Of a DNA stretch of 63,787 nt, positions 1,241-47,091 are shown in pieces. The DNA comes from Bacteroidota bacterium (GTDB lineage: Bacteria > Bacteroidota > Ignavibacteria > UBA10030 > UBA8401). The stretch covers positions 1 to 63,787 of the forward strand of contig SXSI01000013.1 of the NCBI GenBank assembly GCA_005792285.1. Direction: 5' to 3'. The translations under genes were made by a program, and so were the position numbers. Below the pieces are notes generated by a model that was not told where the DNA came from, made no database searches, and saw nothing but the letters and a program-made list of their open reading frames with translations. The first letter of the stretch is position 1. Each line of letters opens with the position of its first letter.

Positions 1241-1753
1241 TTATCGTTCTAAAGCAAGACTTAATGCTGTAGTAAGTTTCAAAACATCTTGAGAGGTTTT
1301 ATCTAAGCGACTACCTACAATTTTTACAAGATTTAATAAAACTTTATATCCGATAGTATGATTTGATTCGATTAAATTAAAAAAAGTTTCTTTTTTTAGA
1401 ATTGCAAGTGAAGATGCTTTTTTAGTCATAACTGAAGCACTTCGTTTACTATTTTCATCAAACAATCCGATCTCACCAAAAAATGGACGAGTTGAATCAT
1501 CTAATTGCAAAAATGATTTATCACTTTTATTTAAACTTTTATTTTGTTGCTTAATAATTAGCGAACGACTAATCTCAACAGATCCTTTAAGTAAAATAAA
1601 CATTTCATCTCCATGAGTTCCTTCTTGTATGAAAGTTGTATTTTCATCAATTTTTCGGAGCTCCATAATATTCACTAAATCTTTCAATTGAGTTTCATTC
1701 AAACCAAGAAAAAGTGGAATATTTTTTATATCTGAAATTAAGATTGAGTTCAT
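1241..1753 (-). CDS. stand-alone cyclic nucleotide-binding domain protein
   Basis: A 170-residue protein that is essentially one cNMP-binding beta-roll (Crp/PKA-R type) without a DNA-binding helix-turn-helix. Residues about 39-61 carry the glycine-containing turn before the first long strands (EGTHGDEMFILLKGSVEIS). After a charged insertion of about 25 residues, the phosphate-binding cassette reads FGEIGLFDENSKRSASV, keeping the Glu and Arg that contact the ribose and phosphate in cAMP/cGMP-binding members. A helical tail follows. Its ATG overlaps the TGA of the upstream K+ channel gene as ATGA, so the two are translationally coupled. I infer that it is a ligand-sensing partner of the channel or of another envelope protein. 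A transcription factor role is unlikely without an HTH. Confidence 0.85.
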   Translation of the reverse strand: MNSILISDIKNIPLFLGLNETQLKDLVNIMELRKIDENTTFIQEGTHGDEMFILLKGSVEISRSLIIKQQNKSLNKSDKSFLQLDDSTRPFFGEIGLFDENSKRSASVMTKKASSLAILKKETFFNLIESNHTIGYKVLLNLVKIVGSRLDKTSQDVLKLTTALSLALER

Positions 1754-26151: not shown

Positions 26152-26154
26152 TTT

Positions 26155-28072: not shown

Positions 28073-28073
28073 A

Positions 28074-29108
28074 ATGTTACAGTTTGAAAATAATATTGTT
28101 TTATGGCTGGGAATTATAATTCCAATATTAATTATTATTTACATTTTAACTTTAAGAAGAAGAAAATTATTTTCTGAAAAAATTTCAAAAACCTTATGGA
28201 ATAAACTTGAAGGGGATTTAAGTAAGTTTAAAAAACATTTGAAGTTTTTATTTTTAATTTTAGCTCTGTTACTTTTTATACTTGCACTTGCAAATCCATT
28301 AAGAGGAACCAAACTTGAAGAAGTGAAACAAGAAGGAATGGATATTTTTATTGCACTCGATGTTTCGCTTTCAATGACAGCAGAAGATGTTGCGCCGAAT
28401 AGAATTGAGAAAGCAAAATTCGAAATAAATAAATTAATTGGAAAATTAAGTGGCGACAAAATCGGATTAATTATTTTTTCAGGAATGAGTTATATTCAAC
28501 TTCCTTTAACAATAGATTATAGCGCGGCTTCGATGTTTGTAGATGTTATCAGAATTGATGCTGTTCCAACTCCCGGTTCGATAATTGAAGACGCAATTAG
28601 ATTGGCGATGAAATCATTTTATCAGGAAAAGCCAGCACAAAAAGTTTTAATAATTATTACTGATGGCGAAAGTACTGAAGGTGATTCCTATAAAGCTGCC
28701 GAAGATGCTGCAAAAGATGGAGTTATGATTTATACAATTGGAATTGGAACGCAGGATGGAACGCCTATGCCTATATTTGATCAATATGGAAAAAAAGATT
28801 TTAAACGCGATCGATCAGGCAATATTGTTTTAACAAAATTGGATGAAACTGGATTAATCCAAATTGCAAATTTAGGTGGTGGTAAATATATTAATTCCAA
28901 AACAAATGTTGATGGTTTAGATGAAATATTTAAAGATTTGAATAAATTACAGAAAAGAGAATTTGGCCAAAAAATGTTCACAGAATATGAAACTGAGTTT
29001 CAGTATTTTGGATTTGTTGGATTATTATTTTTGCTCATTGAGTTCTTTATGAATGAGAAAAAATCAAGTTGGATTCGGAAGTTAACTTTTAAAAAGAACA
29101 CAGATTAA
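28074..29108 (+). CDS. batB: BatB-like VWA-domain membrane protein
   Basis: A 344-residue paralogue of BatA with the same plan: N-terminal helices, a VWA domain with MIDAS DVSLSM (DIFIALDVSLSMTAEDVAPN), IITDGESTEGDSYKAAEDA, and a C-terminal helix (FVGLLFLLIEFFMN). The two VWA proteins share EDxxPNRIExAK after the MIDAS Ser, consistent with ancient duplication. It lies in the middle of the bat operon, with batC starting 5 bp later. Confidence 0.9.
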   Translation: MLQFENNIVLWLGIIIPILIIIYILTLRRRKLFSEKISKTLWNKLEGDLSKFKKHLKFLFLILALLLFILALANPLRGTKLEEVKQEGMDIFIALDVSLSMTAEDVAPNRIEKAKFEINKLIGKLSGDKIGLIIFSGMSYIQLPLTIDYSAASMFVDVIRIDAVPTPGSIIEDAIRLAMKSFYQEKPAQKVLIIITDGESTEGDSYKAAEDAAKDGVMIYTIGIGTQDGTPMPIFDQYGKKDFKRDRSGNIVLTKLDETGLIQIANLGGGKYINSKTNVDGLDEIFKDLNKLQKREFGQKMFTEYETEFQYFGFVGLLFLLIEFFMNEKKSSWIRKLTFKKNTD

Positions 29109-29112
29109 TTAA

Positions 29113-29808
29113 GTGAAAAAATTATTTTTAATAATATTGAATATTTCGGCATTTAGTTTTACAGATGCTCAATCACTTCGATCTATTATTTCAAATGGAA
29201 ATGATATTTACAAAAACGAAAAATATTCTGATGCTGAAGTTGAATATTTAAAAGGAATTGAGAAAGGGAAGGATGAAGTTTATGGTTACTTTAATCGTGG
29301 AAATACTTTACTAAAACAAAATAAAGATTCAGTTGCCGAAAAAGAATATTTAACTGCCTTAACAAAAACTGAAAATAAAAATTTCAAAAGTCAAATTAAT
29401 TATAACATCGGTAATGTAGAGATGAAAAATAATAATTATGAAAAAGCAGTTGAACATTACAAGCAATCACTTCGACTTAATCCAAATGATGAAGATGCAA
29501 GGTATAATTTAGGTTATGCATTGAAACAAATTCAAATAGTAAAAAAAGATTCTTCAGAAAAGAAGAATGATAAAAAAGAGAACAAAGAAAATAAAAAAGA
29601 AAAACAAGATCAAAAAAATCAACAACAAGATCAGCAAAAACAGAATCAATCTGAACAACGAAAAGAACAACCTCAAGCAAAAAAATCGAACATTACAAAA
29701 GAGAGTGCTGAAAGAATTTTACAAGCGATAAACGAAAATGAAAAAGATGTTCAGAAGAAATTAAAAAAGCGAACTGCTGTTAGAATTGACGTTGAAAAAG
29801 ATTGGTAA
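29113..29808 (+). CDS. batC: BatC-like TPR protein (GTG start)
   Basis: A 231-residue exported TPR protein. It has GTG as initiator at 29113 and a signal peptide ending near DAQS. At least three TPR helix pairs lie between about 25 and 140 (IYKNEKYSDAEVEYLKGIE, FNRGNTLLKQNKDSVAEKEY, HYKQSLRLNPNDEDARYNLG). A very Lys/Gln/Glu-rich low-complexity stretch follows at about 145-195, then a conserved basic tail (ERILQAINENEKDVQKKLKK). This is the usual BatC layout. It is presumably a periplasmic scaffold for BatA/B. Confidence 0.86.
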   Translation: MKKLFLIILNISAFSFTDAQSLRSIISNGNDIYKNEKYSDAEVEYLKGIEKGKDEVYGYFNRGNTLLKQNKDSVAEKEYLTALTKTENKNFKSQINYNIGNVEMKNNNYEKAVEHYKQSLRLNPNDEDARYNLGYALKQIQIVKKDSSEKKNDKKENKENKKEKQDQKNQQQDQQKQNQSEQRKEQPQAKKSNITKESAERILQAINENEKDVQKKLKKRTAVRIDVEKDW

Positions 29809-29815
29809 TATTTAA

Positions 29816-31615
29816 ATGAAAATTAACAGATTAATTATTTTAAATATTTTATTTAGTTTCATTCTCTTTTCACAGGATGCAACGTTTGTAGCTTCTGTTG
29901 ATAATAATTCGCCACAAGTTGGTGAACAAATGACTTTAACATTTACATTTAGTGGAAGTGGTGGTAAAAATTTTCATCAACCTGATTTAAATAATTTTTT
30001 TGTTTTAGGTGGACCAAACCAATCTACAAATATGCAATTTGTAAATGGAGTTGTTTCATCTTCATTCACAATTACTTATCAAATTCAAGCACGTTCTGAA
30101 GGAAAATTTACAATCGGAAGTGCGACAATTGAAGCTGGTGGAAAACAATATTCGTCTAATAATATTGAAATTGAAGTTCGAAAATCAATACAAAAACCAG
30201 CTTCGCCTCAAACAGGTTCGACTACTTTAAGCAGTGAAAATTTATTTCTTCGTGCAACAATTGATAAATCAAAAGTTTATGTTGGCGAGCAGATTACAAT
30301 TGTTTATAAAATTTATACACGACTTCGAATTTCAAATTATTCGATTAAAGCTTTTCCGGCAACATCTGGATTTTGGGTTGAAGAAATTCCGCAAACTCAA
30401 CAAATTCAATTAATAAATGAAGTTGTAAATGGCGTTCAATATCAAGTTGGTGAATTAAAACGGATTGCATTATTTCCAACACAATCTGGAATTTTAGAAG
30501 TAAAACCATTTGAAATAACCTGCCAAGTTCAAGTACAATCAAGACGCAAAACAAATGATCCGTTTGATATTTTTAATGATCCATTTTTCAATACAATGCA
30601 AACGCAAAATGTTCAAATAAAAAGTAATTCAGTAAAAATAAATTCAATCTCATTGCCGTTAGTTAATGTTCCAAAAAGTTTTTCAGGAGCAGTTGGTAAT
30701 TATCAAATGAATATTATAACTTCAAAAACAAAAACTGAAACAAATGAAGCAATAACACTTCGAATGAAAATTAATGGAACTGGAAATGTAAAATTAATTG
30801 AAACTCCGGAATTAAAATTGTCGAATGAGTTTGAATTGTATGCTCCGAAAGTTAATGACAATATTAATACCCAATCCAATCCGATAACAGGAACGAAGAT
30901 GGTTGAATGGTTATTGATTCCAAGATTTCCCGGAGATAAAAAAATTCCAGCTTATGCGTGGAGTTATTTTAATCCGTCGCAAAATAAATATGTAACAATT
31001 TCAAGTTCTGAAATTTCTTTAACAATTAAACAGGGGAGTAAAAGTGGTGCGCAAATTGGTAATGGTATTTCTAAAGAAGAAATTGAAATATTAAATCAGG
31101 ATATTCGGTTTATTATAATTTCAAATACATCTTTCACGGATATTGGTGAAAGTGGAAAATCATTTACAACGCGAATGTTGTTATATTTTATTCCAGTTTT
31201 AGTTGCAGGAGGACTTGTTTATTTCAGAATAAAAAATGAAAAATCAAAATTTTATATTATTGATTATAAATCCAGAATAGCATCGAGAGTAGCAAAAAAT
31301 AAATTGAAAATTATTGAAAGTTATTTGAAGAGTGATGAACAAAATAAATTTTTTACTGAACTTTCAAACACGTTGACTTTGTATATTTGTGATAAGTTAA
31401 ATATTCCATTTTCTCAATTATCGGAAGTAGAAATTATAAAACAATTAAAAGAAAAAAATATAAATATCGAGTTAATAGATTCTTTTACAGCACTTCAAAA
31501 AAATTGTGAGTTTGCAAGATTTGCTCCTTCCGCAGAAATTAGTTCAACAAAAAATGAATTATATAATGAGTCAGAAAAAGTAATTTTCAAATTGGAAGAG
31601 GAATTAAATAAATGA
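29816..31615 (+). CDS. batD: BatD oxygen-tolerance family protein
   Basis: A 599-residue envelope protein: signal peptide (to about 20, LFSQ), repeated beta-sandwich modules beginning ATFVASVDNNSPQVGEQMTLTFTFSG (the BatD signature, with a second VYVGEQITIVYKIYTRL), a transmembrane helix near 455-472 (MLLYFIPVLVAGGLVYF), and a cytosolic helical C-terminal part. Its TGA stop overlaps the batE ATG (ATGA), so the pair is translationally coupled. This is another regular use of TGA as stop in this genome. Confidence 0.92.
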   Translation: MKINRLIILNILFSFILFSQDATFVASVDNNSPQVGEQMTLTFTFSGSGGKNFHQPDLNNFFVLGGPNQSTNMQFVNGVVSSSFTITYQIQARSEGKFTIGSATIEAGGKQYSSNNIEIEVRKSIQKPASPQTGSTTLSSENLFLRATIDKSKVYVGEQITIVYKIYTRLRISNYSIKAFPATSGFWVEEIPQTQQIQLINEVVNGVQYQVGELKRIALFPTQSGILEVKPFEITCQVQVQSRRKTNDPFDIFNDPFFNTMQTQNVQIKSNSVKINSISLPLVNVPKSFSGAVGNYQMNIITSKTKTETNEAITLRMKINGTGNVKLIETPELKLSNEFELYAPKVNDNINTQSNPITGTKMVEWLLIPRFPGDKKIPAYAWSYFNPSQNKYVTISSSEISLTIKQGSKSGAQIGNGISKEEIEILNQDIRFIIISNTSFTDIGESGKSFTTRMLLYFIPVLVAGGLVYFRIKNEKSKFYIIDYKSRIASRVAKNKLKIIESYLKSDEQNKFFTELSNTLTLYICDKLNIPFSQLSEVEIIKQLKEKNINIELIDSFTALQKNCEFARFAPSAEISSTKNELYNESEKVIFKLEEELNK

Positions 31616-32352
31616 AAAATCTAATTTTATTTTTCATTTTATTTTCAATTTTAGATGCGAAAGAAACTAATCTTAATTTCCAGAATGGGAATAAGTTTTA
31701 TATCGAAAAAAAATATAGTGATGCAATTAAAGAATATGAAGCAATTCTATCATTGGGAATTGAAAGTCCGGAAGTTCATTTTAATATTGCCAATTCTTAT
31801 TTTAAAAATAACAATTTAGGAAAGGCGATTCTTCATTTTGAGAAAGCAAATAAATTAGATAGGGATAATGAAGATATACTTTTTAATTTACAATATGCTC
31901 AAGCTAAAAGAATTGATAAAATCGATTTGATTCCTGAATTTTTTTTAAAAACTTGGTTACTGAAGATCAACAACATATTTTCTTCAGGAATCGGATTCAT
32001 AATAATGTATCTTGGTTTTCTATTTGGATTAATATTTTTAACGGTTGTTTATTATTATTCATCATTAAATAGAAAAGTATTTTTTGTTGGAATAATTTTA
32101 TCTCTACTTTCTTTTTGTACAATATTAATTTATGAATATGGTGAATCAGAAAAATCATCAAAAGTTGAAGGAATAATTACAACTTCGATTGTAAATATTA
32201 AACTATCACCAGTTCGAGATTCGGAAGATGCATTTTTATTACACGAAGGAACAAAATTTATTTTACTCGATAATGTTGGCGATTGGTTTAAAATACAATT
32301 ATCCGACGGAAAAATTGGTTGGATTGAATCTACAAACTTTGGAAAAATATAA
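31612..32352 (+). CDS. batE: BatE-like TPR/SH3 membrane protein
   Basis: A 246-residue protein: signal peptide, two TPR repeats at about 25-90 (FYIEKKYSDAIKEYEAILSLG, SYFKNNNLGKAILHFEKANKLD), two transmembrane helices (about 118-142 and 150-170), and a C-terminal bacterial SH3 domain (about 185-245) ending DGKIGWIESTNFGKI. This matches BatE. It closes the bat operon, and transketolase follows 3 bp later and may share the transcript. Confidence 0.86.
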   Translation: MKNLILFFILFSILDAKETNLNFQNGNKFYIEKKYSDAIKEYEAILSLGIESPEVHFNIANSYFKNNNLGKAILHFEKANKLDRDNEDILFNLQYAQAKRIDKIDLIPEFFLKTWLLKINNIFSSGIGFIIMYLGFLFGLIFLTVVYYYSSLNRKVFFVGIILSLLSFCTILIYEYGESEKSSKVEGIITTSIVNIKLSPVRDSEDAFLLHEGTKFILLDNVGDWFKIQLSDGKIGWIESTNFGKI

Positions 32353-34362: not shown

Positions 34363-34419
34363 CTTAGTCAAGTCAGAAAAAAAATAAATCTTTTTAAAAT
34401 TCTAAATATTTGAATTAAA

Positions 34420-34450
34420 GGTAACAATATTGTAATTGTTGCCTTTTTTT
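34420..34450 (+). terminator. intrinsic terminator after transketolase
   Basis: GGTAACAAT (34420-34428) pairs with ATTGTTGCC (34435-34443) with one T-G pair, followed by seven T. It lies 58 bp after the tkt stop and isolates the next cluster transcriptionally. Confidence 0.8.
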
Positions 34451-34474: not shown

Positions 34475-34490
34475 TGTGATATAGATTACA
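34475..34490. promoter_or_regulatory. CRP/FNR-like palindrome upstream of the CsgG-cyclase cluster
   Basis: TGTGA-TATAGA-TTACA matches TGTGA-N6-TCACA at 9 of the 10 defined bases. It lies 57 bp upstream of the preferred start at 34548. TATACA at 34515-34520 could be a -10 box, which would place the site near -44, close to a class II activator position. This is motif evidence only. Confidence 0.45.
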
Positions 34491-34547
34491 TGAATAAGAA
34501 CGTACCTTGATTTGTATACAAAAATTGAGCAATATGCACATGTAAAA

Positions 34548-35903
34548 ATGAGCAAAAAGTTAAATATAAGCTGGCAAATAATTCTAATTTCTACTTCATT
34601 ATTTATTGCAGGATGTGCTCCTACAATTTATGATGTTCTTTCACAAAAACTTGATGAAGGAAAGAACGATGAAGTTATCAGCGAATTGCGAGAATCTCTC
34701 ATAAAAAATTCCGGAGATCCGCAGATTGTAAAGTTTATGGGAGTTGCACTTTATAACAAAAAATATTACTCCACAGCTCTCCCTTACTTTGAACGAGTTT
34801 ATAAAATGGATCCTGAAGATGATCAGAATATTTATTATCTCGCTGCTAGTTATGAAGCAGTAATTGAATATCCGCAAGCAATACAATTTTACAGACGTTA
34901 TAATGAGATGACAATTTTTGGAGAATATCGTGAACATGTTGAGGCACGAATGAAACTTCTCCACAAAAGCCAGATGGAAATGGATGCTAAAAAAGCATTA
35001 CTCGAAGAATCGATGCTTGATGTAGATAGAATTCCACTTAACACAATTGCAGTGTTAAATTTTGAAAATAAAAGTGGAAAGAAAGAATTAGATCCACTTC
35101 AAAAAGGTCTCGCCGAAATGACAATTACAGATCTTTCAAAAGTAAAAGCATTAAAAGTAGTTGAACGAGTTCGACTACAAAAATTAGTTGAAGAAATGAA
35201 TTTTGGAGAAACAGGTTTAGTTGATGACGCAACTGCTCCGAGAATTGGTAAATTACTCGGCGCTTCTAAATTAGTGAAAGGATCTTATTTTGATTTATCA
35301 AATGATGAAGTTAGAATTGATGCACTAATTGCGCAAACTCGAACCGGAAGTTTAATTGGAACTACAGACATCTCAGGAAAGACAACCGGATTTTTCCGTT
35401 TACAAAAAGAACTTGTCTTTAAAATAATTGAAGAATTAAATATTAAAATTTCCGATTCTGAAAGAGAAGCAATACTTACAATCCCAACTGAAAATATGTT
35501 TGCATTTTTACAATTCTCACAAGGAATTGATTTCGAAGATAAAGGAATGTATAACCAAGCGATTGTATCTTATACTGCTGCTGTTCAAGCTGATCCAAAA
35601 TTTTCTCAAGCAGGTGCAAATTTATCTTCTGCGAAACAAACTTCAAATATTATTTCAACTTCAAGTTCATCAACTACATCAACTCGATCTTCCAGTGGAA
35701 GAGGTTCAGGAATTTCTACAACAACTCCACCACCACCACCAAATAGTGCTTCAACAAAAGATGTGTTGAATAGTGTAAGTGATCGTGCAAATACTTCACA
35801 AGGAAATGCTTCAAGTGGATTTACATCAACTCCTGGTTCAACTCAAGGCCCACCATCGGTTTTAACAAATCCGTTACCAGCACCACCAAGACCGCCACTA
35901 TAA
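34548..35903 (+). CDS. CsgG/TPR lipoprotein
   Basis: A 451-residue lipoprotein. ATG 34548 is chosen because it puts a proper signal before the lipobox LFIAGC; an in-frame TTG at 34512 adds 12 residues. Residues about 28-130 are TPR-like (FMGVALYNKKYYSTALPYFERVYKMDPEDDQ). Residues about 165-320 form a CsgG-type domain (NTIAVLNFENKSGKKELDPLQKGLAEM, KVVERVRLQKLVEEMNF, IGKLLGASKLVKGSYF, GTTDISGKTTGFF), then another TPR, and a Ser/Thr/Pro-rich tail ending in polyproline. CsgG forms outer-membrane channels for curli. Here the domain may build a related ring. The gene overlaps the next gene by one base (TAATG). Confidence 0.83.
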   Translation: MSKKLNISWQIILISTSLFIAGCAPTIYDVLSQKLDEGKNDEVISELRESLIKNSGDPQIVKFMGVALYNKKYYSTALPYFERVYKMDPEDDQNIYYLAASYEAVIEYPQAIQFYRRYNEMTIFGEYREHVEARMKLLHKSQMEMDAKKALLEESMLDVDRIPLNTIAVLNFENKSGKKELDPLQKGLAEMTITDLSKVKALKVVERVRLQKLVEEMNFGETGLVDDATAPRIGKLLGASKLVKGSYFDLSNDEVRIDALIAQTRTGSLIGTTDISGKTTGFFRLQKELVFKIIEELNIKISDSEREAILTIPTENMFAFLQFSQGIDFEDKGMYNQAIVSYTAAVQADPKFSQAGANLSSAKQTSNIISTSSSSTTSTRSSSGRGSGISTTTPPPPPNSASTKDVLNSVSDRANTSQGNASSGFTSTPGSTQGPPSVLTNPLPAPPRPPL

Positions 35904-38900
35904 TGAAATTATTGAAATTAAATATTCTATTTATTTTTGTAATTTCAATTTCACTATTTGCACAACAAGGCACACTTCAATTTATCGGTCCATCTGGTGG
36001 AAATATTACAGCGATCAATGGAACTTCAAACGCAGATAATATTTTAATTGGTGTAAAAGATAAAGGAATATTTTATTCTTCAACAAGTGGGAATCTTTGG
36101 ACGCAATCCGATTTGAAAGATGGATTTATTCATAGTTTTGCATTTAATCCTACAAATTCGAAAATAGTTTTTGCTGCAACTAATACTGGATTATGGAAAA
36201 GTATTAATGGTGGAAAAAATTGGATTTCGACAAGACTTATCGGCAAAATAAATTCAATTGCCATTTCATCTAAAAATGCAAATATAATTTTTGCTGGAGC
36301 TAATCGATTAGATACTTCAGGATTTGCTCGTTCTTTTGATGGTGGAGAAAATTGGCAGTTTAGTAACACTGGACTTTCCATCGAAGCTAAAAATGTTACT
36401 TCAATCGCAATTGATCCTGTGAATGATTCTTTAGTTTATATTGGAACTTTTGGATCAGGGGTTTTTCAATCTAACAATAAAGGAACAAGTTGGATTGAGA
36501 TGAATAGTAACCATTCACATTTGCCAAATTTTCATTCCAGAAAAAGAATTAACAGTTTATTATTATCTCAAGATGCAAACTTTCCAAATTCTGTAATTAT
36601 TGGAACTGATGATGGCGCATATTTTTCTTTAGCTCGTGGTGGAAGTTGGCTTCCTCTAAAACATGGATTGGAACAAAGTGATAGTGTTGTAAAACAACTT
36701 TTAATTATTTCTGATGATCCAACTGACCTTCGAGGTCCGAATAGTATGTTTATGGTTACTATTCCTTCTTCAAATTTGTTGAACACATATCCAAGCTCAA
36801 GTGGATTTCACAGTGCAGCTATTTCAAAAGAAAATTTTTCTCAATCTTGGGAAGCTAAATTTCAACGAGTAATTTATAATCAATGTTTTTTCATTCCACA
36901 AAATATTCCGACAACAGTTTTTTTGGGAACTTCAGATGGAATTTATTACAGTGCAAATAAAGGAAGTAGTTGGGAAAGAAAAAACTTTAATTTGAAGTTT
37001 GTTGAAACTTCTAAAATAGCTTCTTCAAAATATGGAGATACATTATTTATTTCTTCAATGGGAGGAGGGATGTATCGCTCGATTGATTTTGGAGTTTCGT
37101 GGAGTAGTATAAATAATGGAATTGAAGATCCATTTGTAAATAATTTTGAAATCGATCCAACAAACTCATCTCTACTTTATTCTGTTAATAGATTAAATTT
37201 TTATAAATCTACAAATGCCGGAGAAAAATGGAATAAAATTTCGATTTCATCTGTTAATAGTGAAAATACAAATAATGATTTCAATGGACAGTTATCTCTT
37301 TCTAAAAGAAATTCAAAAAATATAATTGTTCATAGTTCGAGAACTGAAACGCAATATTCACTTGATTATGGAGTGAGTTGGCAACGACTTAATATGCCAA
37401 GTACAGCTTCAACAAAATTATTAAATGGCACTGTAGTATTCCATTCAAAATTAGATAATACAATTTTGCTCAGTAGTAATGGTATTTGGCGAACTTCTGA
37501 TTTAGGAACGAACTGGAAAAATATTACAGGTACTTTACCATTAACAAATAATTCCGGAAATAATGTTTATGCTTTTAGAATTTTCACTCATCCCGCTTTA
37601 GATTCGTTAATTTATGTTGCGCGTAAAACAGATGGTGACAAACCAGAGTTTATGTATAAAACTGCAGATTTACAAAATTGGGTTTCTGTGGATCTGGATA
37701 TTAACTCACTTCTTTTACACAAAACAAAACCAAATAATTTATTTGCTTCAAGCTATAACAAAACATATTTCAGCGATAATGCAGGACTAAGTTGGATACC
37801 GACAACTTCAGACTCAACGCATTCATTAGTAAGTAGAGTTAGTGCTTCATTAGTTGATAAATTTTTATTTTATTTAGCAACAAAGGGTGGAGTTTATACA
37901 GAATATTATTCGAAAGATCCTGCTATTCTAATTCCAAACAAAAATATTGATGTCGGTTCATTGTCGGTTGGTGAATCTAAAAATATTAGTCTCACATTTA
38001 AAAATGTCGGTTCACAAGATTTAACAGTTAGAATTGATTCATTGGATAATGCAAAAGATTATTTTGGAAAGAAGAATCAACTATTAACTATTAAACCAAA
38101 CACAACGGGAGTTCAATCAATTATATATCAACCATTAACTTCAGGAATTTTATCTTCGAATATTTATTTTACAACCAACGATCCTGAGAATAGTTCAATT
38201 CAACTTTTATTAAATGGAAAAGGAATTGCTAAAACAATTATTCCTAAAAAAATACTTATCGACTCTTTGCATGGATTAAGTTTTTCTGATACCGGATTAA
38301 CAGTTCCAAAATATTTTAATGGCTTAATTAAATCTCTCGGCGAAAGTGGAATGTCTGTAACTTCAAACCAAAGTAGTTTTGATACAACAGGATTTGATGC
38401 AATTATTTTACCTTCTCCAAAATCGAAATATGATCAACGTGAAATTCTCTCAATTATAAGATATGTGATGGGAGGTGGATTTCTTATTTTACTTGCCGAT
38501 CAATCTTCAAATGAAGGGAATAAATATTTAAATGAAATTCTTACAAATTTCAGATGGAAAGAAGATTACAAAGATAGCACCGGGCTTTTAATTCAAACGG
38601 ATAGATATATTGTTGATTCGGTTTTAGCATTTCAGGGAAATCCATTAAATATAGTTGCAAGACAATTTGCAAATAAAGCTCATCCGTTTCTTAACAATGT
38701 TGACACTTTAGTTTTATTTGGAAGTACAAATATTTTAGCTCAAGAAGGAAAAGCAAATATTTTTCTGAGAGGTGAAGCTTCAACATTTTCAATTAATTCT
38801 GTGACAAACAAACCCGATTCGTTGCGACCAACTTTAATTGCTATTTCACAAGTTGGTAAAGGAACAATATTGGTTTTAGGCGATATGGATATTTGGAGTG

Positions 38901-40309
38901 AAAAGAAATTAAATAATGTAACAACTACTGGAAATATTATGAGTGGTTTGTTTGCAAAATCTAATCTTACTTTTGCGTTAAATATTTTTTCTTCAAAACA
39001 GAACTACGAAGTCAAACTTCCGCAACAAACTTTAAGTGAACGATATTTACTTTTAACAATTCCATTTGACTTGAATAGTTTTAATATCACTCAAGTTTTA
39101 AAAGATCTCGGTTCTATAAATCCAATTAATTGGAGATTGTGGAAGTGGGAATCTGAAAAACAAGTTTTTGTAGAATTCCCAAATCCGGCATTTACAACTT
39201 TTAAAAGAGGCGAAGGATATTGGCTAATTACAAAAGGGGATAAATCTTTGAATCTTGGAAATGCAACTTTAACTTCTTCAACAGGTTATCACGAAATAAA
39301 ACTTTATCCAGGTTATAATTTAATTGGAAATCCATTCCCATATACAGTTAGTTGGGAAAACTCAAAACGGGATTCAGGAATTGAAAATAAACTTTGGCGA
39401 TGGAATAAAACAAGATACGAAGCTGTTACAACTAACTTACTTCCATTTGAAGGATATTGGGTAAAAAATACTTCAACTCGAATATTAACAGTTTTAATTA
39501 ATCCCGCAAAAATTAGTGGAACAGGAAAAATGGATCCGGGTAATTCTATCTCAAGTTCTAAATGGAGTTTAAAATTGCGTGCACTTTCATTAGTTGCAAC
39601 TGATGAAGATAATTTTATTGGGATGCATCCCGAAGCAAAAATTGCAAAAGATGAATTTGATTTTTCAGAACCACCGATTGCTCCAACAAATTATCTGCAA
39701 TTAGCTTTCCGAAAAAATAATTGGAAAGAAAATCCGGGACTTTATTCTTCCGACTTCAGACCAATTTCCGAAGAGGGTGATTATTGGGATTTTGAAGTTT
39801 CAAGTAATTTGCATTCGCTCGAAACAAAATTAGTTTACGAAATTGAGAAAGAACTTCCCGATGGTTTTAAAGTTATGCTTTTGGATAAAACCGAAGAACG
39901 TATTTATAATATTTCAAATTCAACTTATAACTTTATTTTTAGAAAAAATCAGCTAACAAGAAATTTCAGAATATTAATTGGAAGAGAATCTTTTATAAGC
40001 CAAAATTCTGAAGGTGTTCCTTTGATTCCTCCAGATTATACTTTAAAACAAAATTATCCAAATCCATTCAATCCGCAAACTTCAATTCAATATTCACTTT
40101 CGTATAGTGGTGATGTTGAAATTGTAATTTATAACACTCTTGGACAAAAAGTAAAAGGATTAGTTAGTCAACATCAGAAAATTGGAACTTACAGTATTAA
40201 TTGGAATGGAAAAGATGAATTCGGATTAAATGTAAGTGCCGGGATCTATTTTTATCGAATAAAAACAGGCAATTATCTTGCAACTAAGAAAATGTTGTTA
40301 ATAAAGTAA
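35903..40309 (+). CDS. giant type IX-secreted beta-propeller protein
   Basis: A 1468-residue exported protein. The signal peptide ends near LFAQQ. About ten BNR/YCF48-like propeller blades span 20-650 with recurring Asp-box patterns (INGGKNWIS, FDGGENWQFS, NKGTSWIEM, NKGSSWERK, DFGVSWSSI, NAGEKWNKI, DLGTNWKNI). Next is an ASH/choice-of-anchor-like domain (NKNIDVGSLSVGESKNISLTF, about 675-775), then an alpha/beta domain with YVMGGGFLILLAD (about 785-990), further beta modules, and the T9SS type A sorting domain at the end (LKQNYPNPFNPQTSIQYSL ... AGIYFYRIKTG). It probably works at the cell surface. It is co-translated with the CsgG lipoprotein upstream. Confidence 0.87.
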   Translation: MKLLKLNILFIFVISISLFAQQGTLQFIGPSGGNITAINGTSNADNILIGVKDKGIFYSSTSGNLWTQSDLKDGFIHSFAFNPTNSKIVFAATNTGLWKSINGGKNWISTRLIGKINSIAISSKNANIIFAGANRLDTSGFARSFDGGENWQFSNTGLSIEAKNVTSIAIDPVNDSLVYIGTFGSGVFQSNNKGTSWIEMNSNHSHLPNFHSRKRINSLLLSQDANFPNSVIIGTDDGAYFSLARGGSWLPLKHGLEQSDSVVKQLLIISDDPTDLRGPNSMFMVTIPSSNLLNTYPSSSGFHSAAISKENFSQSWEAKFQRVIYNQCFFIPQNIPTTVFLGTSDGIYYSANKGSSWERKNFNLKFVETSKIASSKYGDTLFISSMGGGMYRSIDFGVSWSSINNGIEDPFVNNFEIDPTNSSLLYSVNRLNFYKSTNAGEKWNKISISSVNSENTNNDFNGQLSLSKRNSKNIIVHSSRTETQYSLDYGVSWQRLNMPSTASTKLLNGTVVFHSKLDNTILLSSNGIWRTSDLGTNWKNITGTLPLTNNSGNNVYAFRIFTHPALDSLIYVARKTDGDKPEFMYKTADLQNWVSVDLDINSLLLHKTKPNNLFASSYNKTYFSDNAGLSWIPTTSDSTHSLVSRVSASLVDKFLFYLATKGGVYTEYYSKDPAILIPNKNIDVGSLSVGESKNISLTFKNVGSQDLTVRIDSLDNAKDYFGKKNQLLTIKPNTTGVQSIIYQPLTSGILSSNIYFTTNDPENSSIQLLLNGKGIAKTIIPKKILIDSLHGLSFSDTGLTVPKYFNGLIKSLGESGMSVTSNQSSFDTTGFDAIILPSPKSKYDQREILSIIRYVMGGGFLILLADQSSNEGNKYLNEILTNFRWKEDYKDSTGLLIQTDRYIVDSVLAFQGNPLNIVARQFANKAHPFLNNVDTLVLFGSTNILAQEGKANIFLRGEASTFSINSVTNKPDSLRPTLIAISQVGKGTILVLGDMDIWSEKKLNNVTTTGNIMSGLFAKSNLTFALNIFSSKQNYEVKLPQQTLSERYLLLTIPFDLNSFNITQVLKDLGSINPINWRLWKWESEKQVFVEFPNPAFTTFKRGEGYWLITKGDKSLNLGNATLTSSTGYHEIKLYPGYNLIGNPFPYTVSWENSKRDSGIENKLWRWNKTRYEAVTTNLLPFEGYWVKNTSTRILTVLINPAKISGTGKMDPGNSISSSKWSLKLRALSLVATDEDNFIGMHPEAKIAKDEFDFSEPPIAPTNYLQLAFRKNNWKENPGLYSSDFRPISEEGDYWDFEVSSNLHSLETKLVYEIEKELPDGFKVMLLDKTEERIYNISNSTYNFIFRKNQLTRNFRILIGRESFISQNSEGVPLIPPDYTLKQNYPNPFNPQTSIQYSLSYSGDVEIVIYNTLGQKVKGLVSQHQKIGTYSINWNGKDEFGLNVSAGIYFYRIKTGNYLATKKMLLIK

Positions 40310-40313
40310 AATT

Positions 40314-41582
40314 GTGGCGATGATAACACTAAAAAATTTCAAATCATTTTATATTATTCTTGTATTAGCAAGCATGAATATAAATATGGTTGAATCACAA
40401 TTAAAAGGGCCCAAATACGACGAACGTTTGTTATTTAAAAATGTTCGTGGAATTAATTTATCTTTTGTCTCACAAGAATGGAACTTAGCAGATTCAGCAA
40501 GTACAAAAATAACTGTAGCGCAAACTTCAACTCCATTCTCAACATCAATTCCAATTACAACTAGAATGTTATTAACAATTACCGGTTCTGTAGCATCTTC
40601 TTCAAATGATGTTCCGCAAGTTGTTACTGATACTTCTGGAAATATTACAACTTTGGAAAATGATAAATATGAAATGAAAGGGTTGTCGGATACAAAATTA
40701 GCAATGTCGTATGTTGTTCCGGGAGATAAATTATGGATTAATGGCGGTTTAAGTTTCCCAACTGGACAAAAAAAATTAACATCAGATCAATTTAAAGTTT
40801 CACGAATGATTTCTCAAGCGGGATTAAATTTTCGAGTTCCAATTGCTGGACAAGGATTCAACGCAAATTTGGGATTAGCTTATGCATATTCATATTCACG
40901 AAGAATAGTTTTAGGATTTGGAATGTCCGGAACTTATAAAGGAATTTTTGAACCGATTGCAATTGAGAATATAGAAGGAAGTAATACTACTTTTCCGAAT
41001 GTTGAATATAATCCGGGCGAAGATTTTTCGATGAATAGTGGAATTGATTATACTTCAGCAAATAAAGAACAGAGATTTTCTAGCGATCTTACATTTTCAT
41101 ATTATTTGCCCGATCAAATTAATAATCAAAAAACATTTCAAGTTGGTCCAAGATTTAATGCACTCATTTTACTTTCTCAAAAATTTGGTCCAACAACAAA
41201 TGTTGCACTTTTAAGAGGAAGATATAGATTAAAGAACACAATTTTTTCTTCAGATTCGTTAAGCACGCCAAATAAATATCCAAGCGCCAAACAATTTGAA
41301 TTTCAATATGTGTTAACAGTTCCTGTTTTAAATTGGTTTACCTTAAATGGAAATTTTGAATATAAATATCATACAGCCGATCAATTTCCACTTGGAGATA
41401 AAATTATGGAAACAGGCAATGTAGATATGGCGTCATTTGGTGTTGATGTAAATGCGCCAATAACAGATTGGCTTGTGCTTATGTTGGCAACTAAAAAAGG
41501 AAGTGGTAAATTAGTTATCGAAGGAAAAGAATATGATGCAGATGGATTCGAATTTGGACTAGGAGTAAAAATTTCACTTTAA
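40314..41582 (+). CDS. predicted outer-membrane beta-barrel protein
   Basis: A 422-residue exported protein with a signal peptide ending near VESQ. The start is either GTG 40314 or ATG 40320, two codons later; I cannot separate them. The mature part consists of alternating hydrophobic/polar strands with aromatic belts (LAYAYSYSRRIVLGFGMSGTYKG, DLTFSYYLPDQ, VALLRGRYRLKN, FTLNGNFEYKYH), consistent with a 12-16-strand transporter or porin-like barrel, and ends GFEFGLGVKISL, a typical terminal strand. It is sandwiched between the T9SS protein and a CsgG protein, so it is probably the outer-membrane component of this cluster. Confidence 0.75.
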   Translation: MAMITLKNFKSFYIILVLASMNINMVESQLKGPKYDERLLFKNVRGINLSFVSQEWNLADSASTKITVAQTSTPFSTSIPITTRMLLTITGSVASSSNDVPQVVTDTSGNITTLENDKYEMKGLSDTKLAMSYVVPGDKLWINGGLSFPTGQKKLTSDQFKVSRMISQAGLNFRVPIAGQGFNANLGLAYAYSYSRRIVLGFGMSGTYKGIFEPIAIENIEGSNTTFPNVEYNPGEDFSMNSGIDYTSANKEQRFSSDLTFSYYLPDQINNQKTFQVGPRFNALILLSQKFGPTTNVALLRGRYRLKNTIFSSDSLSTPNKYPSAKQFEFQYVLTVPVLNWFTLNGNFEYKYHTADQFPLGDKIMETGNVDMASFGVDVNAPITDWLVLMLATKKGSGKLVIEGKEYDADGFEFGLGVKISL

Positions 41583-41608
41583 TTTATTTTGAAAACTAAA
41601 TAATAAAT

Positions 41609-42361
41609 ATGAAAAACATTTTAAGACGGACTTGTAAAATTTTTGTAACGTTACTTTTTACAGTAATTCTATTTGCACAAGATAAACAACCACAGACAAT
41701 GGCAATTTTATATTTTGAAAATAATTGCCTGCTCGATCGTGAAAAAATGCAACCTCTAAGTAAAGGTCTTGCAGATATGATGTATTCCGAAATGGTAAAA
41801 ATAAAAGGTCTCAAACTTGTTGAGCGAAATAGAATTAAAAGTATTATAGACGAAATGAATTTACAAGAAACAGGAATACTTGAAGAATCCTCAACACAAA
41901 AAATTGGGAAATTACTTGGCGCAAAAGTTATGATGTTCGGTGCATTTACAAAATCGGATGATGATGAAATTAGAATTGATGTTCGAATAGTTCGTACCGA
42001 AACTGGAGAAACTTTAAATGCTGAAGAAGCAACTGGTGAACTTAGCCAGTTTGTAACTTTACTGCGTTCGATCGCAAAAAATGTAGCTGAAAACTTAAAA
42101 GTAAAATTAACTTCTGAAGAAGAAGATTATCTTGAAACTGAACTCGAAGGAAATTTTGATGGTTATATTGCATTTGCAGAAGCAATCGCTTTAGAAGATG
42201 ATTCTCGTTATAAAGAAAAATCAGGCAACGCTGCAAAAGCAAAAGATGGATACCAAAAATCATTAAAACTTTATCAGGAAGCATTATCAAAATCACCAAA
42301 TTATTTACCGGCAAAAGAAAAAGTACAACAATTGAAAACAATAATCTCAAAATTAAAATAA
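41609..42361 (+). CDS. CsgG-family periplasmic protein
   Basis: A 250-residue protein with a signal peptide ending ILFAQ and no lipobox. The CsgG-type domain spans about 30-170: MAILYFENNCLLDREKMQPLSKGLADMM, LKLVERNRIKSIIDEMNLQETG, IGKLLGAKVMMFGAFTKS. It parallels the CsgG domain of the lipoprotein at 34548 so closely (order of blocks, the VERxRxxxxxxEMN..ETG motif) that the two are paralogues. A TPR-like tail (YQKSLKLYQEALSKSPNYLPAKEKV) follows. The next gene begins 13 bp later. Confidence 0.82.
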   Translation: MKNILRRTCKIFVTLLFTVILFAQDKQPQTMAILYFENNCLLDREKMQPLSKGLADMMYSEMVKIKGLKLVERNRIKSIIDEMNLQETGILEESSTQKIGKLLGAKVMMFGAFTKSDDDEIRIDVRIVRTETGETLNAEEATGELSQFVTLLRSIAKNVAENLKVKLTSEEEDYLETELEGNFDGYIAFAEAIALEDDSRYKEKSGNAAKAKDGYQKSLKLYQEALSKSPNYLPAKEKVQQLKTIISKLK

Positions 42362-42374
42362 GAAGGAGTAAATC

Positions 42375-44870
42375 ATGAAAAAAATTATTTTACATGCAAT
42401 AATATTTTTCTTTTCGTTCATTACAATACTTTTTGGTCAAGATATTGAATTGCCTCGAGTTATGGTTGTAGTAGACGAAAAGATTGATGACCAATCAACT
42501 TCGGCAAAGAAGGTTGTTGGTAAAATCGAAGAGGCTTTGCTCGAAAGGGGATTTCGATTAGTCGATAAGGCCCAGTTCGGTGAAATTTTAGCGAGAGACC
42601 TTTCACTCGATCTTACAAATCCTGCAAAAGCAAAAGCTCTTGGAAAAAGATTTGGCGCAGAAATAATTATTACCGGTGGTGTACAAGCAAACTTTGGTGG
42701 AGATATTGAAGTTTACGGAACTAAATATGCAGATTATACGGCAGATGGTTCTGTTAAAATAATTCTCACTGATGTTGGAGAAATTCTTGCAGTTTCAAGT
42801 GCTGATGCAAAAGCTAAAGATCAATCTAAATCTCGTTCCGCTTCTAAATCTTTAGAAGACCTCGGAAAAAAATTAGCAACTGATGTTGTTACTAAAATTG
42901 ATAAGAAGCTGAAAGATATGCGTGATAAACCAATCGTTATTCAATTGGCATTGCTCGGCGTAAATGATGCTTCACTTCTTGAAGAAGAGAAAAAATTACC
43001 AACTAAAATTCCAATGATTCAAAAATTAAAAGTTCGATACATCGAAGGAGATATTGCAATGCTCGATTTAACCGTAAAGGGAACGATTGATGATTTACGA
43101 GCTCAATTCACTTCTTTAGGAGAATATAAAGTTGTTGGATTTACCGGCAGTAGATTGGATGTTTCAACAGATACAAAAGGTGTAAAAAAAGTTTCTGCAT
43201 ATATTCCAAGTGAACTTGAAATTTTGGAATTCAAAGTAGAAAATATTTTTCCTGCACAATTTAATTATTATGCATTTAATCCAATTGGAAATATGATAAT
43301 TGAAAATACCGGCAAGAACGATATTAAGAATGTAAAAGTTTCTGTGATGGTTCCAAAATATATGCAACTTGCTTCCGAAGAAGTTATTCCACTTTTAAAA
43401 GCGAAAGAGAAAAAAGAAATTCCTGTTAAAGCAACATTGGATAATACAGTTTTGCAAGATGTAAAAGATAATATTGCTGCACAAGTTCTAGGAAAAATTA
43501 CATTTGTTGTTGATGGTCAGGAAAAAAGTCGCAGCATAACAAAGACAACTACAATTTATAGTCGCAATTCGGTTTCATGGAACAGACCAGATGCAATTGG
43601 CGCATTCATCACACCGAATGACGAAGCAGTAAAAAATTTCTCACGTTTTGTTATCGGAAATGTTAAACCAGATAAAACAGCATATCCTGACGCACCGCGT
43701 AATATTATGAATGCAATGGCAGTTTGGGATGCAATTCGTGCATTTCAAATAAATTATGTAGTTGATCCATGGAGAGTTGCCGAAGGTGATGTTTTAGATG
43801 ATATTCAATTTCCAAGAGAAACATTGGCGAACAAAGCTGGTGATTGTGATGATAGTTCTGTTCTGCTTGCTTCATGTTTAGAAAATATTGGAATCAGAAC
43901 TTTTTTAATTGGAACATCAGACCACGTTTTTATAATGTTTGATACAGGAGTAAATGCTAAAAATGCATCGCGTGTAAGTTTAAATGAAAGAGAATATATC
44001 GTAAAAGATAATACTGTTTGGATTCCACTTGAGACAACTATTATTGGAAAACCATTTACACAAGCATGGTCGATGGGAGCTGAAGGATATTATAAAACTG
44101 TTGATGCAAATGGAAAGTTAGATATGATTGATGTCAGAAAATCATGGGAAAAATTTCCACCTTCAAATTTAGCATCGAATGTAAAAACAAGTGAACCTCC
44201 ATCTGCAGAAAAAATTGCTTCACTTTTGAATGAAGAATTAATAAATGTAATTACTAATTACAAAGAACAAGTTGAAGCAAGAGTTGCTGCATATAAAGTT
44301 GATGGAACTGAAAAATCCGCACAAAAAGCTTCACAACTTTTAGCAAATGCCGGACGATTCGATGAAGCTCTTGAAGTTATCAAGAAATATAGTTCCGCAA
44401 CTTCAACAAATAATCGTGCCAATATTTATTTATTGAAAGGTGATTCTGCAAACGCATATAATAATTATACCGCAGCATTGAAATCGGATACAAAAGATGG
44501 TGGAATAAATTTAAATTTCGGATTGTTACAATTTTTAGGTGGTAATCCTGCAGAAACTGTTGAATCATTTGCAACAGCTGTGAAAAAATTTCCATCTAAA
44601 GAAGAAGCATTTACAAAATTAGGAATTGATAATATTGTGGCTGAAATGGGACAAACACGTGCTGCTGAAAAAACTCAAGCTGTGGATAAAGGAGAATTAA
44701 AAAACCTATTATCTTCAGCGCTTCAAGATGTAAATGCAAAGAAAGATTCAAAAGCAAACGGAAAAGCAATTAGAAAAGGTGAAAATAAGTTTATTTTTGG
44801 AGGTCGTCGAGGAATCGATCCAACTGCATTAGGTAATATAAAAGATTTTCTATATTGGAAGGAAATATAA
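42375..44870 (+). CDS. CsgG-like / transglutaminase-like / TPR fusion protein
   Basis: An 831-residue exported protein with signal peptide (FGQ) and the strongest SD in the region (AAGGAG, 8 bp before ATG). Residues about 23-185 resemble CsgG/FlgT-like domains (VVGKIEEALLERGFRLVDKAQFG, LGKRFGAEIIITGGVQA). A beta region with a CARDB-like module (NMIIENTGKNDIKNVKVSVMVP) follows. A transglutaminase/cysteine-protease fold comes next with C491 in AGDCDDSSVLLASCL and H517 in TSDHVFIMF; the third residue looks like Glu (VWIPLETT) instead of Asp. TPR repeats end the chain (about 640-740). It could process or cross-link a substrate handled by the CsgG-like proteins. Confidence 0.8.
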   Translation: MKKIILHAIIFFFSFITILFGQDIELPRVMVVVDEKIDDQSTSAKKVVGKIEEALLERGFRLVDKAQFGEILARDLSLDLTNPAKAKALGKRFGAEIIITGGVQANFGGDIEVYGTKYADYTADGSVKIILTDVGEILAVSSADAKAKDQSKSRSASKSLEDLGKKLATDVVTKIDKKLKDMRDKPIVIQLALLGVNDASLLEEEKKLPTKIPMIQKLKVRYIEGDIAMLDLTVKGTIDDLRAQFTSLGEYKVVGFTGSRLDVSTDTKGVKKVSAYIPSELEILEFKVENIFPAQFNYYAFNPIGNMIIENTGKNDIKNVKVSVMVPKYMQLASEEVIPLLKAKEKKEIPVKATLDNTVLQDVKDNIAAQVLGKITFVVDGQEKSRSITKTTTIYSRNSVSWNRPDAIGAFITPNDEAVKNFSRFVIGNVKPDKTAYPDAPRNIMNAMAVWDAIRAFQINYVVDPWRVAEGDVLDDIQFPRETLANKAGDCDDSSVLLASCLENIGIRTFLIGTSDHVFIMFDTGVNAKNASRVSLNEREYIVKDNTVWIPLETTIIGKPFTQAWSMGAEGYYKTVDANGKLDMIDVRKSWEKFPPSNLASNVKTSEPPSAEKIASLLNEELINVITNYKEQVEARVAAYKVDGTEKSAQKASQLLANAGRFDEALEVIKKYSSATSTNNRANIYLLKGDSANAYNNYTAALKSDTKDGGINLNFGLLQFLGGNPAETVESFATAVKKFPSKEEAFTKLGIDNIVAEMGQTRAAEKTQAVDKGELKNLLSSALQDVNAKKDSKANGKAIRKGENKFIFGGRRGIDPTALGNIKDFLYWKEI

Positions 44871-44898
44871 AAATTTATATTATTCAATAAAGGATTGA

Positions 44899-47091
44899 AT
44901 GACATCGCGCACTAAGAAGAAGATAGTAAAAATTTTAGTTGGTGTAGTAATTGCGTCAGTTTGTGTTGGAGCAACATTCTCGCTCTTTCACACAAGCGCA
45001 ATGGATAAGTTATTTGGTTCAAATATTTTTCTTACGCTTGATAGAAAAGCCTACGACACTTATTTAAATGTTCGTGGAGTACGTGAGCATACCGACAATT
45101 TAGTTGTTGTTATAATTGATGAAGCAACTCTTAATGAACTACTCTATCCAATTCCGAGAGATAAATTTGGTGCGCTATTTGCAATCATGCAAAGTTATGG
45201 CGCAAGAGTAATTGGTGTAGATTATTTTTTCCCTCGTGTAAGATCGAATGAAGCATCAGATTACGAACAGGAACAATTTCTCAAATTCTCAAATATGGCT
45301 AACAATGTTATTCATGCAATTGGTCCATTCATTCCATCTGATGATACCGAATTGGACTCAACAGAAATAATTTGGGAAGCGTATCCATTTTTACATCCAC
45401 ATGGAATTCCGAAAGGAGATAATTTTCATTATTTCCCGCAAAGTTCTTTTGTTGATGAAAGACCATTTGATTCTTTGGCAAGACTTTCTGCTGGAGTTGC
45501 ACACGTTGCAATGGCGCCGGATTCAATTGATGGAATAACTCGTAAAGTTCCATTCTTTATAGAATATGGTGGAGATTATTATCCATCATTAGGAGCAGCG
45601 ATAGCTTTGTATTCATTAAATGTTGATAGTAAAAAACTTATTGTTAAGGAAACTGATAATGGTTTAATGGTAAAAGGAATTGGAATTGAAATTCCATTAG
45701 ATAAACATGGAATGCTTTCAATTGATTATGTTGGAGAAACAAAATTTTTCAAAGAAATTTCGATGTATGATGTACTCGATGCTTTCGCAAGAGGAGATAC
45801 AACTACACTTTCAATATTCCAAAATGCATCAGTAATAGTTGGTCCAACAGCTCGTTCAATTGGGGATCTCGGTCCAACTCCGATTTCTGAAAAATCGCCA
45901 AATTGCTATATTCATGCTAATGTTTATGATCAAATTGTAACAAAGCATTTTATAACATTTCCAAAATTACAATCTGAGCTTTGGTTAACGCTAAATTTAG
46001 CATTATCAATTGGAGTATTATCATTGCTCGTTTCACTTCGTTGGAGCAGTTTATATTTTGTACTTCTAATAACTTCATATTTCTTTGTAGTAAATGAAAT
46101 ATTTCAAATTACTGGATTAATAATTAGTTTTCCTCAGGCAATAATTTCTTTCTTTTTAACTTACGCAACTGCTGTCGGATATATTTCTATTACAGAAGGA
46201 AAACAGAAATCCGAAATTAAAAACATGTTCACAAAATATGTTGACGCATCAGTTGTAGAAAAATTAATTAACAATCCTGAAATGTTGAAACTTGGTGGTG
46301 AAGAAAAAGAAGTTACAGTTCTATTTTCTGACATTGAAGGTTCAACAACAATTGCCGAAAAATTGGGACCGCAGAATACAGTTACTTTGATTAATGAATA
46401 TTTAACTGACATGACGAATATTATTTTGGAAAAAGGTGGAACTTTAGATAAATATATTGGTGATGCAATTATGGCATTTTGGGGCGCGCCGTTAAACGAT
46501 CCAGATCATGCATATAATGCTTGCGAAACAACTTTGTTAATGCAGCGCAAACTTAAAACACTTCATCCATATTGGACTGAAAAAGGTTGGCCATTAATTT
46601 TACAACGTGTTGGTTTAAATACCGGAAAAGTTATTGTTGGAAATGTTGGTTCAACAAATAAATTTAATTATACAGTTATGGGTGATGCAATAAATCTTGG
46701 TTCGCGAGTTGAAGGAGTAAATAAAGAATACGGAACTTATATTTGCATTACAGAATTTACGCATGCAAGAGTTGCTGAACGTGTTATTACGCGTGAGCTC
46801 GATCTTGTTGTTGTAGTCGGAAAGACAGAACCCGTTCGTATTTACGAATTGATGGCGCTCACTTCTGATCCAACAGATGATAAAATTATGAAATTCAGAG
46901 AAGTATATTCAAATGCATTAGCTCAGTATAAAAAACGAGAATGGAAAAGTGCGATTTCAATTTGGGAAGATGCTTTACAATTAAGAGAGGATGAAAAAGC
47001 CTCAAAAATGTATATCAAGCGTGCAAAAGATTATATAGAAAATCCTCCCGGCGATGATTGGAGAGGTGTTTATATCTCCACCAAAAAATAA
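44899..47091 (+). CDS. CHASE2-domain class III adenylate cyclase
   Basis: A 730-residue membrane cyclase: an N-terminal TM helix, an extracytoplasmic CHASE2 sensor (about 45-345, including DEATLNELLYPIPRDKFG and VIGVDYFFP), three TM helices (about 360-435), and a class III catalytic domain (about 465-650). Metal Asp residues are D478 (LFSDIEGST) and D522 (YIGDAIMAFWG). Purine specificity is indicated by K518 and D596 (MGDAINLGSR), favouring ATP over GTP. N599 and R603 stabilise the transition state. A TPR-like helical tail ends the protein. It senses envelope state and makes cAMP. It comes 28 bp after the transglutaminase gene, with AAGGA before ATG. Confidence 0.93.
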   Translation: MTSRTKKKIVKILVGVVIASVCVGATFSLFHTSAMDKLFGSNIFLTLDRKAYDTYLNVRGVREHTDNLVVVIIDEATLNELLYPIPRDKFGALFAIMQSYGARVIGVDYFFPRVRSNEASDYEQEQFLKFSNMANNVIHAIGPFIPSDDTELDSTEIIWEAYPFLHPHGIPKGDNFHYFPQSSFVDERPFDSLARLSAGVAHVAMAPDSIDGITRKVPFFIEYGGDYYPSLGAAIALYSLNVDSKKLIVKETDNGLMVKGIGIEIPLDKHGMLSIDYVGETKFFKEISMYDVLDAFARGDTTTLSIFQNASVIVGPTARSIGDLGPTPISEKSPNCYIHANVYDQIVTKHFITFPKLQSELWLTLNLALSIGVLSLLVSLRWSSLYFVLLITSYFFVVNEIFQITGLIISFPQAIISFFLTYATAVGYISITEGKQKSEIKNMFTKYVDASVVEKLINNPEMLKLGGEEKEVTVLFSDIEGSTTIAEKLGPQNTVTLINEYLTDMTNIILEKGGTLDKYIGDAIMAFWGAPLNDPDHAYNACETTLLMQRKLKTLHPYWTEKGWPLILQRVGLNTGKVIVGNVGSTNKFNYTVMGDAINLGSRVEGVNKEYGTYICITEFTHARVAERVITRELDLVVVVGKTEPVRIYELMALTSDPTDDKIMKFREVYSNALAQYKKREWKSAISIWEDALQLREDEKASKMYIKRAKDYIENPPGDDWRGVYISTKK

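Follow-up and report, generated by a model that had tools for sequence, protein, structure and literature searches.

Organization and predicted products of the six-gene unit

The stretch of DNA analyzed here (63,787 nt, hereafter referred to as the window) carries six genes, designated A to F, on the forward strand between positions 34545 and 47091. The initial annotation had described them as closely spaced genes on one strand, which agrees with intergenic gaps of 0, 4, 26, 13 and 28 nt, but had begun the cluster at position 34475; gene A starts at ATG 34545, with TTG 34512 as a possible alternative. A hairpin resembling an intrinsic terminator is the likely upstream boundary of the unit, and the sdhCAB genes are located downstream of F. 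The hairpin and the six genes are listed below.

34417..34446 (+): intrinsic-terminator-like hairpin, 12 pairs followed by a T-run, between the transketolase gene and A
34545..35903 (+): A, 452 aa, outer-membrane lipoprotein with TPR, CsgG core and a proline-rich C-terminal tail (LPxPPxPP-like)
35903..40309 (+): B, 1468 aa, T9SS-secreted protein with Vps10/BNR propellers, choice-of-anchor-D and a type A sorting tail
40314..41582 (+): C, 422 aa, predicted 16-strand outer-membrane beta-barrel
41609..42361 (+): D, 250 aa, signal peptide, CsgG core without pore hairpins and a short TPR-like tail
42375..44870 (+): E, 831 aa, signal peptide, weakly CsgG-like N-domain, second alpha/beta domain, Ig, transglutaminase-like domain and TPR
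44899..47091 (+): F, 730 aa, membrane class III adenylate cyclase with periplasmic CHASE2

The CsgG core (PF03783) is matched by A with 38.2 bits and by D with 49.8 bits, above the curated cut-off of 20.8, and is flanked in A by an IAGC lipobox and TPR on one side and by further TPR and the proline-rich tail on the other. The two proteins are paralogs sharing a VERxR / E(M/L)N..ET block (hhalign E-value 2.7e-37), as the initial annotation had proposed, and fall into separate tree groups (support 100/99). Its extension of the CsgG-like label to the N-terminus of E fared less well, the likeness there being weak (hhalign probability 41%), and PDB sequence searches with D and E returned mostly designed TPR proteins and weak CsgG matches.

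The description of these domains as export-pore-like had to be abandoned. The PF03783 match covers positions 14-99 and then 119-154 for D, and positions 11-97 only for A, and the alignment to E. coli CsgG (low hhalign probability) is gapped at the first membrane hairpin and ends before the second, at positions that we take to be those of the hairpins in the CsgG structure. By match range and alignment, both transmembrane beta-hairpin insertions of CsgG are absent from A and D. Searches for CsgE and CsgF (PF10614, PF10627) gave no match in seven genomes, with a positive E. coli control, in line with the earlier observation that no curli subunit, CsgE or CsgF is recognizable. Because both hairpin insertions and CsgE/CsgF are missing, a curli-type pore was ruled out: relative to the curli channel, the cluster retains the CsgG core in A and D, but lacks the membrane hairpins, CsgE and CsgF, and adds TPR.

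B proved to be the T9SS propeller giant that had been annotated, with a Sortilin/Vps10 match of 82 bits, several Vps10/BNR propeller stretches, a choice-of-anchor-D domain and a type A C-terminal sorting domain (TIGR04183, 43.3 bits, cut-off 23); more than 30 other T9SS-tailed proteins are encoded in the window's genome. C has no Pfam match. Its AlphaFold2 model (pLDDT 79) forms a barrel of 16 long strands, and its Foldseek matches in the PDB are porins and channels (OmpG, FadL, MOMP, CymA, PelBC, BcsC) with TM-scores of 0.3-0.6, which support the annotated outer-membrane barrel and place it in no family.

The transglutaminase-like domain of E contains a Cys-His-Glu triad in a TGc motif context (GDCDD, DH, WIPLETT), with the previously noted C491 and H517, together with E553, invariant in 14/14 homologs; the Pfam match to DUF553 is weak (E-value 0.13). 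The AlphaFold2 model of E, computed from 12 sequences, is poor (pLDDT 52.6, pTM 0.27) and was therefore used for rough secondary structure only, and a plasmid search with E recovered distant DUF3320 proteins only.

F matches CHASE2 (140.9 bits) and the cyclase domain (76 bits), as annotated, with a predicted topology of one transmembrane segment at 12-30, CHASE2, three transmembrane segments at 361-422 and then the class III cyclase. Residues D478, K518, D522, D596, N599 and R603, which cover the two metal Asp, the adenine-specifying Lys/Asp and the transition-state Asn/Arg, are invariant over 14 sequences, and among solved structures a profile comparison places CyaB (3r5g, E-value 5e-54) nearest to F. 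The putative product of F is cAMP. No other clear class III cyclase is encoded in the window's reduced genome, which also contains five cNMP-binding genes; no Pkinase match was found in this genome (G000) or in that of its congener.

Conservation and modularity of the cluster

Gene maps were compiled from one contig scan with E and two genome searches, counting once the loci that represent the same contig (L034/L044) or the same genome (L040/G299), and families were labeled f1 (the window's family), f2 and so on. The complete A-B-C-D-E-F order, on one strand, is present in nine f1 loci (the window, L035, L040, L041, L042, L045, L047, L049 and L133), whereas L044 has all genes but B, and the incomplete contigs (L043, L046, L048, L050-L053) agree with the same order as far as they extend. 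The genes are thus not scattered in relatives, and the chance adjacency that the initial annotation had named as its refutation is itself refuted. The sdhCAB genes are also syntenic in f1, but do not adjoin the cluster in L035 and L048.

Co-occurrence of all six genes, which the initial annotation had proposed to check across Ignavibacteriota/Chlorobi, holds in f1 but not beyond it, where the cluster is found as two separable modules: A-D (module 1) and E with F (module 2). A profile of A run over 396 genomes identified 16 full-length A loci outside f1. In 13 of these, from eight families (f3, f27, f38, f22, f46, f36, f54 and f5), a receptor Ser/Thr kinase gene adjoins a D-like gene, followed by A and then by B and/or C, the usual order being kinase-D-A-B-C (L099, L123, L100, L101, L102, L124, L125, L126, L128, L131, L132, L134 and L135). 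Kinase and D genes are separated by 2-174 nt, with one gap of 853 nt, and FHA genes lie nearby in several cases. All 13 kinases contain HRD and DFG motifs and exactly one predicted transmembrane segment, making them bitopic. In most of them PEGA repeats are present on the C-terminal side; profile matching found none in the f22 kinases. The three other loci (L127, L129 and L130; G219 C42, G255 C106 and G255 C21) have no adjoining transducer.

Kinase and cyclase alternate at these loci: no f1 locus has the kinase and none of the 16 loci outside f1 has the cyclase. A mere relocation of the kinase in f1 is not evident, as the PEGA kinases of f1 genomes (506-533 aa) give far lower scores when compared with the cluster kinases and are encoded among different neighbors. 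The presence of A-D beside a receptor kinase in other families suggests that the inner-membrane output has been exchanged.

E-like and F genes are adjacent in 10 of the 11 genomes with Ig-transglutaminase-TPR homologs, spanning five families, and occur as module 2 alone in four: f15 (L037-L039), f5 (L094), f25 (L095, L096) and f18 (L097). In f15 the order is cyclase, small lipoprotein, E; at two of the three loci the intervening product is identified by profile as a CsgG-domain lipoprotein, and at the third it is a small lipoprotein. In L094-L097 the E-like protein is much longer, and a TPR protein is encoded between it and the cyclase. The one genome without the pair is G078, in which E-like and cyclase genes lie on different contigs and the cyclase adjoins two CsgG-core genes. 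Shorter transglutaminase proteins (~670-750 aa) are not encoded beside CHASE2 cyclase matches, and other CHASE2 cyclases adjoin SH3-M48 peptidase or FecR genes.

In phylogenetic trees a branch supported at 100/99 separates the kinase-linked A proteins from the others, and the D proteins divide likewise, as expected if A and D were co-inherited. Support for the cyclase-linked A proteins as a single group is lower (61/68) because of L133. The cyclase/kinase split is old, and there was probably a single exchange, on the line to f1; being one lineage event, it leaves the f1 loci without independence from each other. The tree favors no direction for this exchange, although the kinase version occurs in many families and the cyclase version in one.

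A putative envelope signaling device and competing explanations

The same outer parts are encoded beside a kinase or a cyclase, two proteins alike only as membrane transducers, and signaling is therefore the most economical reading of the cluster. We consider it reasonably probable, on evidence that is comparative throughout, that A-F form an envelope-spanning device transmitting signals from the outer membrane to the cytoplasm, with an output exchanged between receptor kinase and cAMP. The T9SS-displayed propeller B and the barrel C, both facing outward, would make up the outer sensing part together with the TPR/CsgG-core lipoprotein A; D and E would convey the state of this assembly across the periplasm to CHASE2 of F, and F would synthesize cAMP for CRP-type receptors, with the five cNMP-binding proteins as possible targets. 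Elsewhere, A-D would serve as the outer module of a bitopic receptor Ser/Thr kinase, E accompanying the cyclase. Whether the order is kinase-D-A... or ...C-D-E-F, D adjoins the transducer side and is therefore the candidate for contact with it. Gene content, order, catalytic residues and the kinase/cyclase alternation are established by the comparisons; the physical contacts, the signal direction, the ligand, cAMP as the product, its target and the action of D and E as relays are all putative in this scheme. The signaling from envelope state to cAMP suggested by the initial annotation is the best-supported reading, strengthened by the position of the outer parts beside receptor kinases in other families, and is conjectural as regards function.

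We regard as evenly balanced the more specific proposal of a modular platform, in which one envelope set is plugged into a kinase in most lineages and into a transglutaminase-partnered CHASE2 cyclase in f1, and in which CsgG-core proteins devoid of the hairpins serve as relays in the periplasm and not as pores. The route by which a surface event is signaled across both membranes to the cytoplasm has been worked out in few systems, and A, C, D and E are partner proteins without a described function. If the proposal is correct, CsgG-core proteins would in part be signal relays and not secretion pores alone, T9SS-displayed propellers might be sensors, and one outer sensor could be rewired between phosphorylation and cAMP, opening the testable question of which parts of envelope signaling devices are fixed and which exchangeable. 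Against signaling stand the lack of B in L044, the three A loci without an adjoining transducer, the mutual dependence of the f1 loci and the poor model of E, and the five cNMP receptors of the genome do not single out a target.

Several features of the cluster also invite other explanations. An export or assembly machine of the CsgG or Pel type that transports B or a polysaccharide and is regulated by the cyclase or kinase would account for a secreted cargo encoded beside a barrel gene and for the resemblance of TPR, lipoprotein and 16-strand barrel to PelB/PelC, PelBC being among the Foldseek matches of C (PMC12141448). We judge it unlikely, given the missing hairpins of A and D, the absence of CsgE/CsgF against a positive control, the T9SS signal that B itself carries in a genome with many other T9SS-tailed proteins, the B-less locus L044 and the lack of a polysaccharide synthase among the six genes. 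The comparison with PelB/PelC breaks down further in that TPR is here on the lipoprotein and not on the barrel, no Pel genes are present in the unit, and a kinase or cyclase is.

A role in envelope maintenance, in which peptidoglycan or cell-wall proteins would be the targets of the LpoB-like CsgG-core proteins and of the transglutaminase-like enzyme while F monitors the wall, draws on the LpoB score of D (21.4 bits, just below the cut-off of 22.3), on the invariant Cys-His-Glu of E and on the peptidase and FecR neighbors of other CHASE2 cyclases. Yet the unit contains no peptidoglycan synthase, the surface propeller and barrel are left unexplained, and the kinase/cyclase exchange is accounted for no better than by signaling, and we judge this role unlikely as well.

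We find it quite improbable that the genes are functionally separate neighbors held together by lineage history. All six do occur together in one family only, where sdhCAB is syntenic too, but each module is also found in other families, in different orders and among different flanking genes, the intergenic gaps are tiny, and sdh does not adjoin the cluster in L035 and L048. An anti-phage cyclase system of the Pycsar type is highly improbable: the PADLOC PycC matches of F are confined to the catalytic domain common to class III cyclases, with CHASE2 outside the matched part, no adjacent cNMP-activated effector is present among the six genes, and the resemblance of the Ig-transglutaminase part of E to the start of the NCBIfam 'anti-phage ProA' spans ~300 of 1903 positions (score 76.8, cut-off 1500), so that both matches were set aside as domain-level only.

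Relation to known signaling systems

Neither CHASE2 with CsgG nor PEGA with CsgG was found in the literature searched, which left out most subscription journals. Within that literature the cluster is undescribed, its novelty lying in an inner-membrane output that is exchanged in modular fashion. The signaling reading has partial parallels among systems that combine transmembrane Ser/Thr kinases (PknB-like) with FHA proteins, such as the T6SS-linked PpkA/Fha pathway with lipoprotein TagQ. The kinase-linked loci likewise have a receptor kinase, an FHA gene and envelope lipoproteins, but differ in having PEGA rather than PASTA repeats and CsgG-core, T9SS and barrel partners, and the window's version has a cyclase instead.

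In Sinorhizobium meliloti, cAMP produced by the CHASE2 cyclases CyaD1/CyaD2/CyaK rises when a plant protein is sensed via the barrel NsrA, with Clr as regulator (PMC13001267). The likeness lies in an outer-membrane barrel upstream of CHASE2 cyclases that pass cAMP to a CRP-type regulator, here represented by co-localization of genes alone; a TPR/CsgG-core pair, a T9SS propeller and a transglutaminase-like partner are not known to belong to that pathway (PMC13001267). In magnetotactic bacteria, mtxA, whose deletion had no visible phenotype, encodes a periplasmic protein of ~313 aa and is followed by a CHASE2 cyclase gene (PMC4439547). No transglutaminase-like domain is described for MtxA, unlike E, but the pair resembles E-F in that a gene for a periplasmic Ig and TPR protein precedes one for a CHASE2 adenylate cyclase (PMC4439547).

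Tail of A and a partial anti-phage model match in E

The TPR/CsgG-core lipoprotein A ends in a proline-rich C-terminal tail (LPxPPxPP-like; window 35840-35903) that is present in 19 of 24 A homologues, spanning both the receptor Ser/Thr kinase-linked and the CHASE2 cyclase-linked types, and that is possibly a docking peptide. At one locus in another genome (L127:6146-17000), a stand-alone A homologue adjoins a tandem array of at least four secreted proteins, each about 803-812 aa long.

Residues 303-597 of the Ig/transglutaminase-like/TPR protein E (window 42375-44870), corresponding to its Ig-transglutaminase stretch, match the first 300 positions of the NCBIfam model NF058533 'anti-phage protein ProA' (E 7e-22), with a score far under the model cut-off.

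Ser/Thr kinases and CsgG-like cores

Across whole genomes, one to nine Pkinase-family Ser/Thr kinases are encoded in other members of the window's family, and none in the window's own reduced genome (1.68 Mb) or in that of its congener G299. Single-protein fusions, in which a Ser/Thr kinase domain precedes a CsgG-like core and TPR, were observed at three loci of other genomes, with a transmembrane segment between the kinase and CsgG-like/TPR parts predicted only at L138:

L136:1668-3776, kinase-CsgG-like-TPR protein
L138:2115-4451, kinase-CsgG-like-TPR protein, predicted transmembrane segment
L139:1643-4141, kinase-CsgG-like-TPR protein

Another locus, L137:1-14153, is a tandem array of six paralogous genes, whose products (about 710-764 aa) all combine a CsgG-like stretch with a hydrophobic N-terminal region.

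CHASE2 cyclases elsewhere and other window genes

A secreted protein of roughly 400-450 aa adjoins other CHASE2 cyclases of the phylum (L103, L108, L109 and L110), and comprises SH3 and M48 peptidase domains at two of these loci:

L103:8805-12337, CHASE2 cyclase with SH3 + M48 peptidase neighbour
L108:9345-12740, CHASE2 cyclase with SH3 + M48 peptidase neighbour

The cyclase-containing gene run at L112 also includes a FecR protein. Further genes in the window are:

1241-1753, minus strand, small cNMP-binding-domain protein, 43 kb from the CHASE2 class III adenylate cyclase F
25252-32352, plus strand, Bat-type aerotolerance operon (DUF58, VWA/BatA, BatD, TPR + SH3-like protein), with transketolase immediately downstream
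61240-62364, plus strand, tyrosine recombinase of the phage-integrase family
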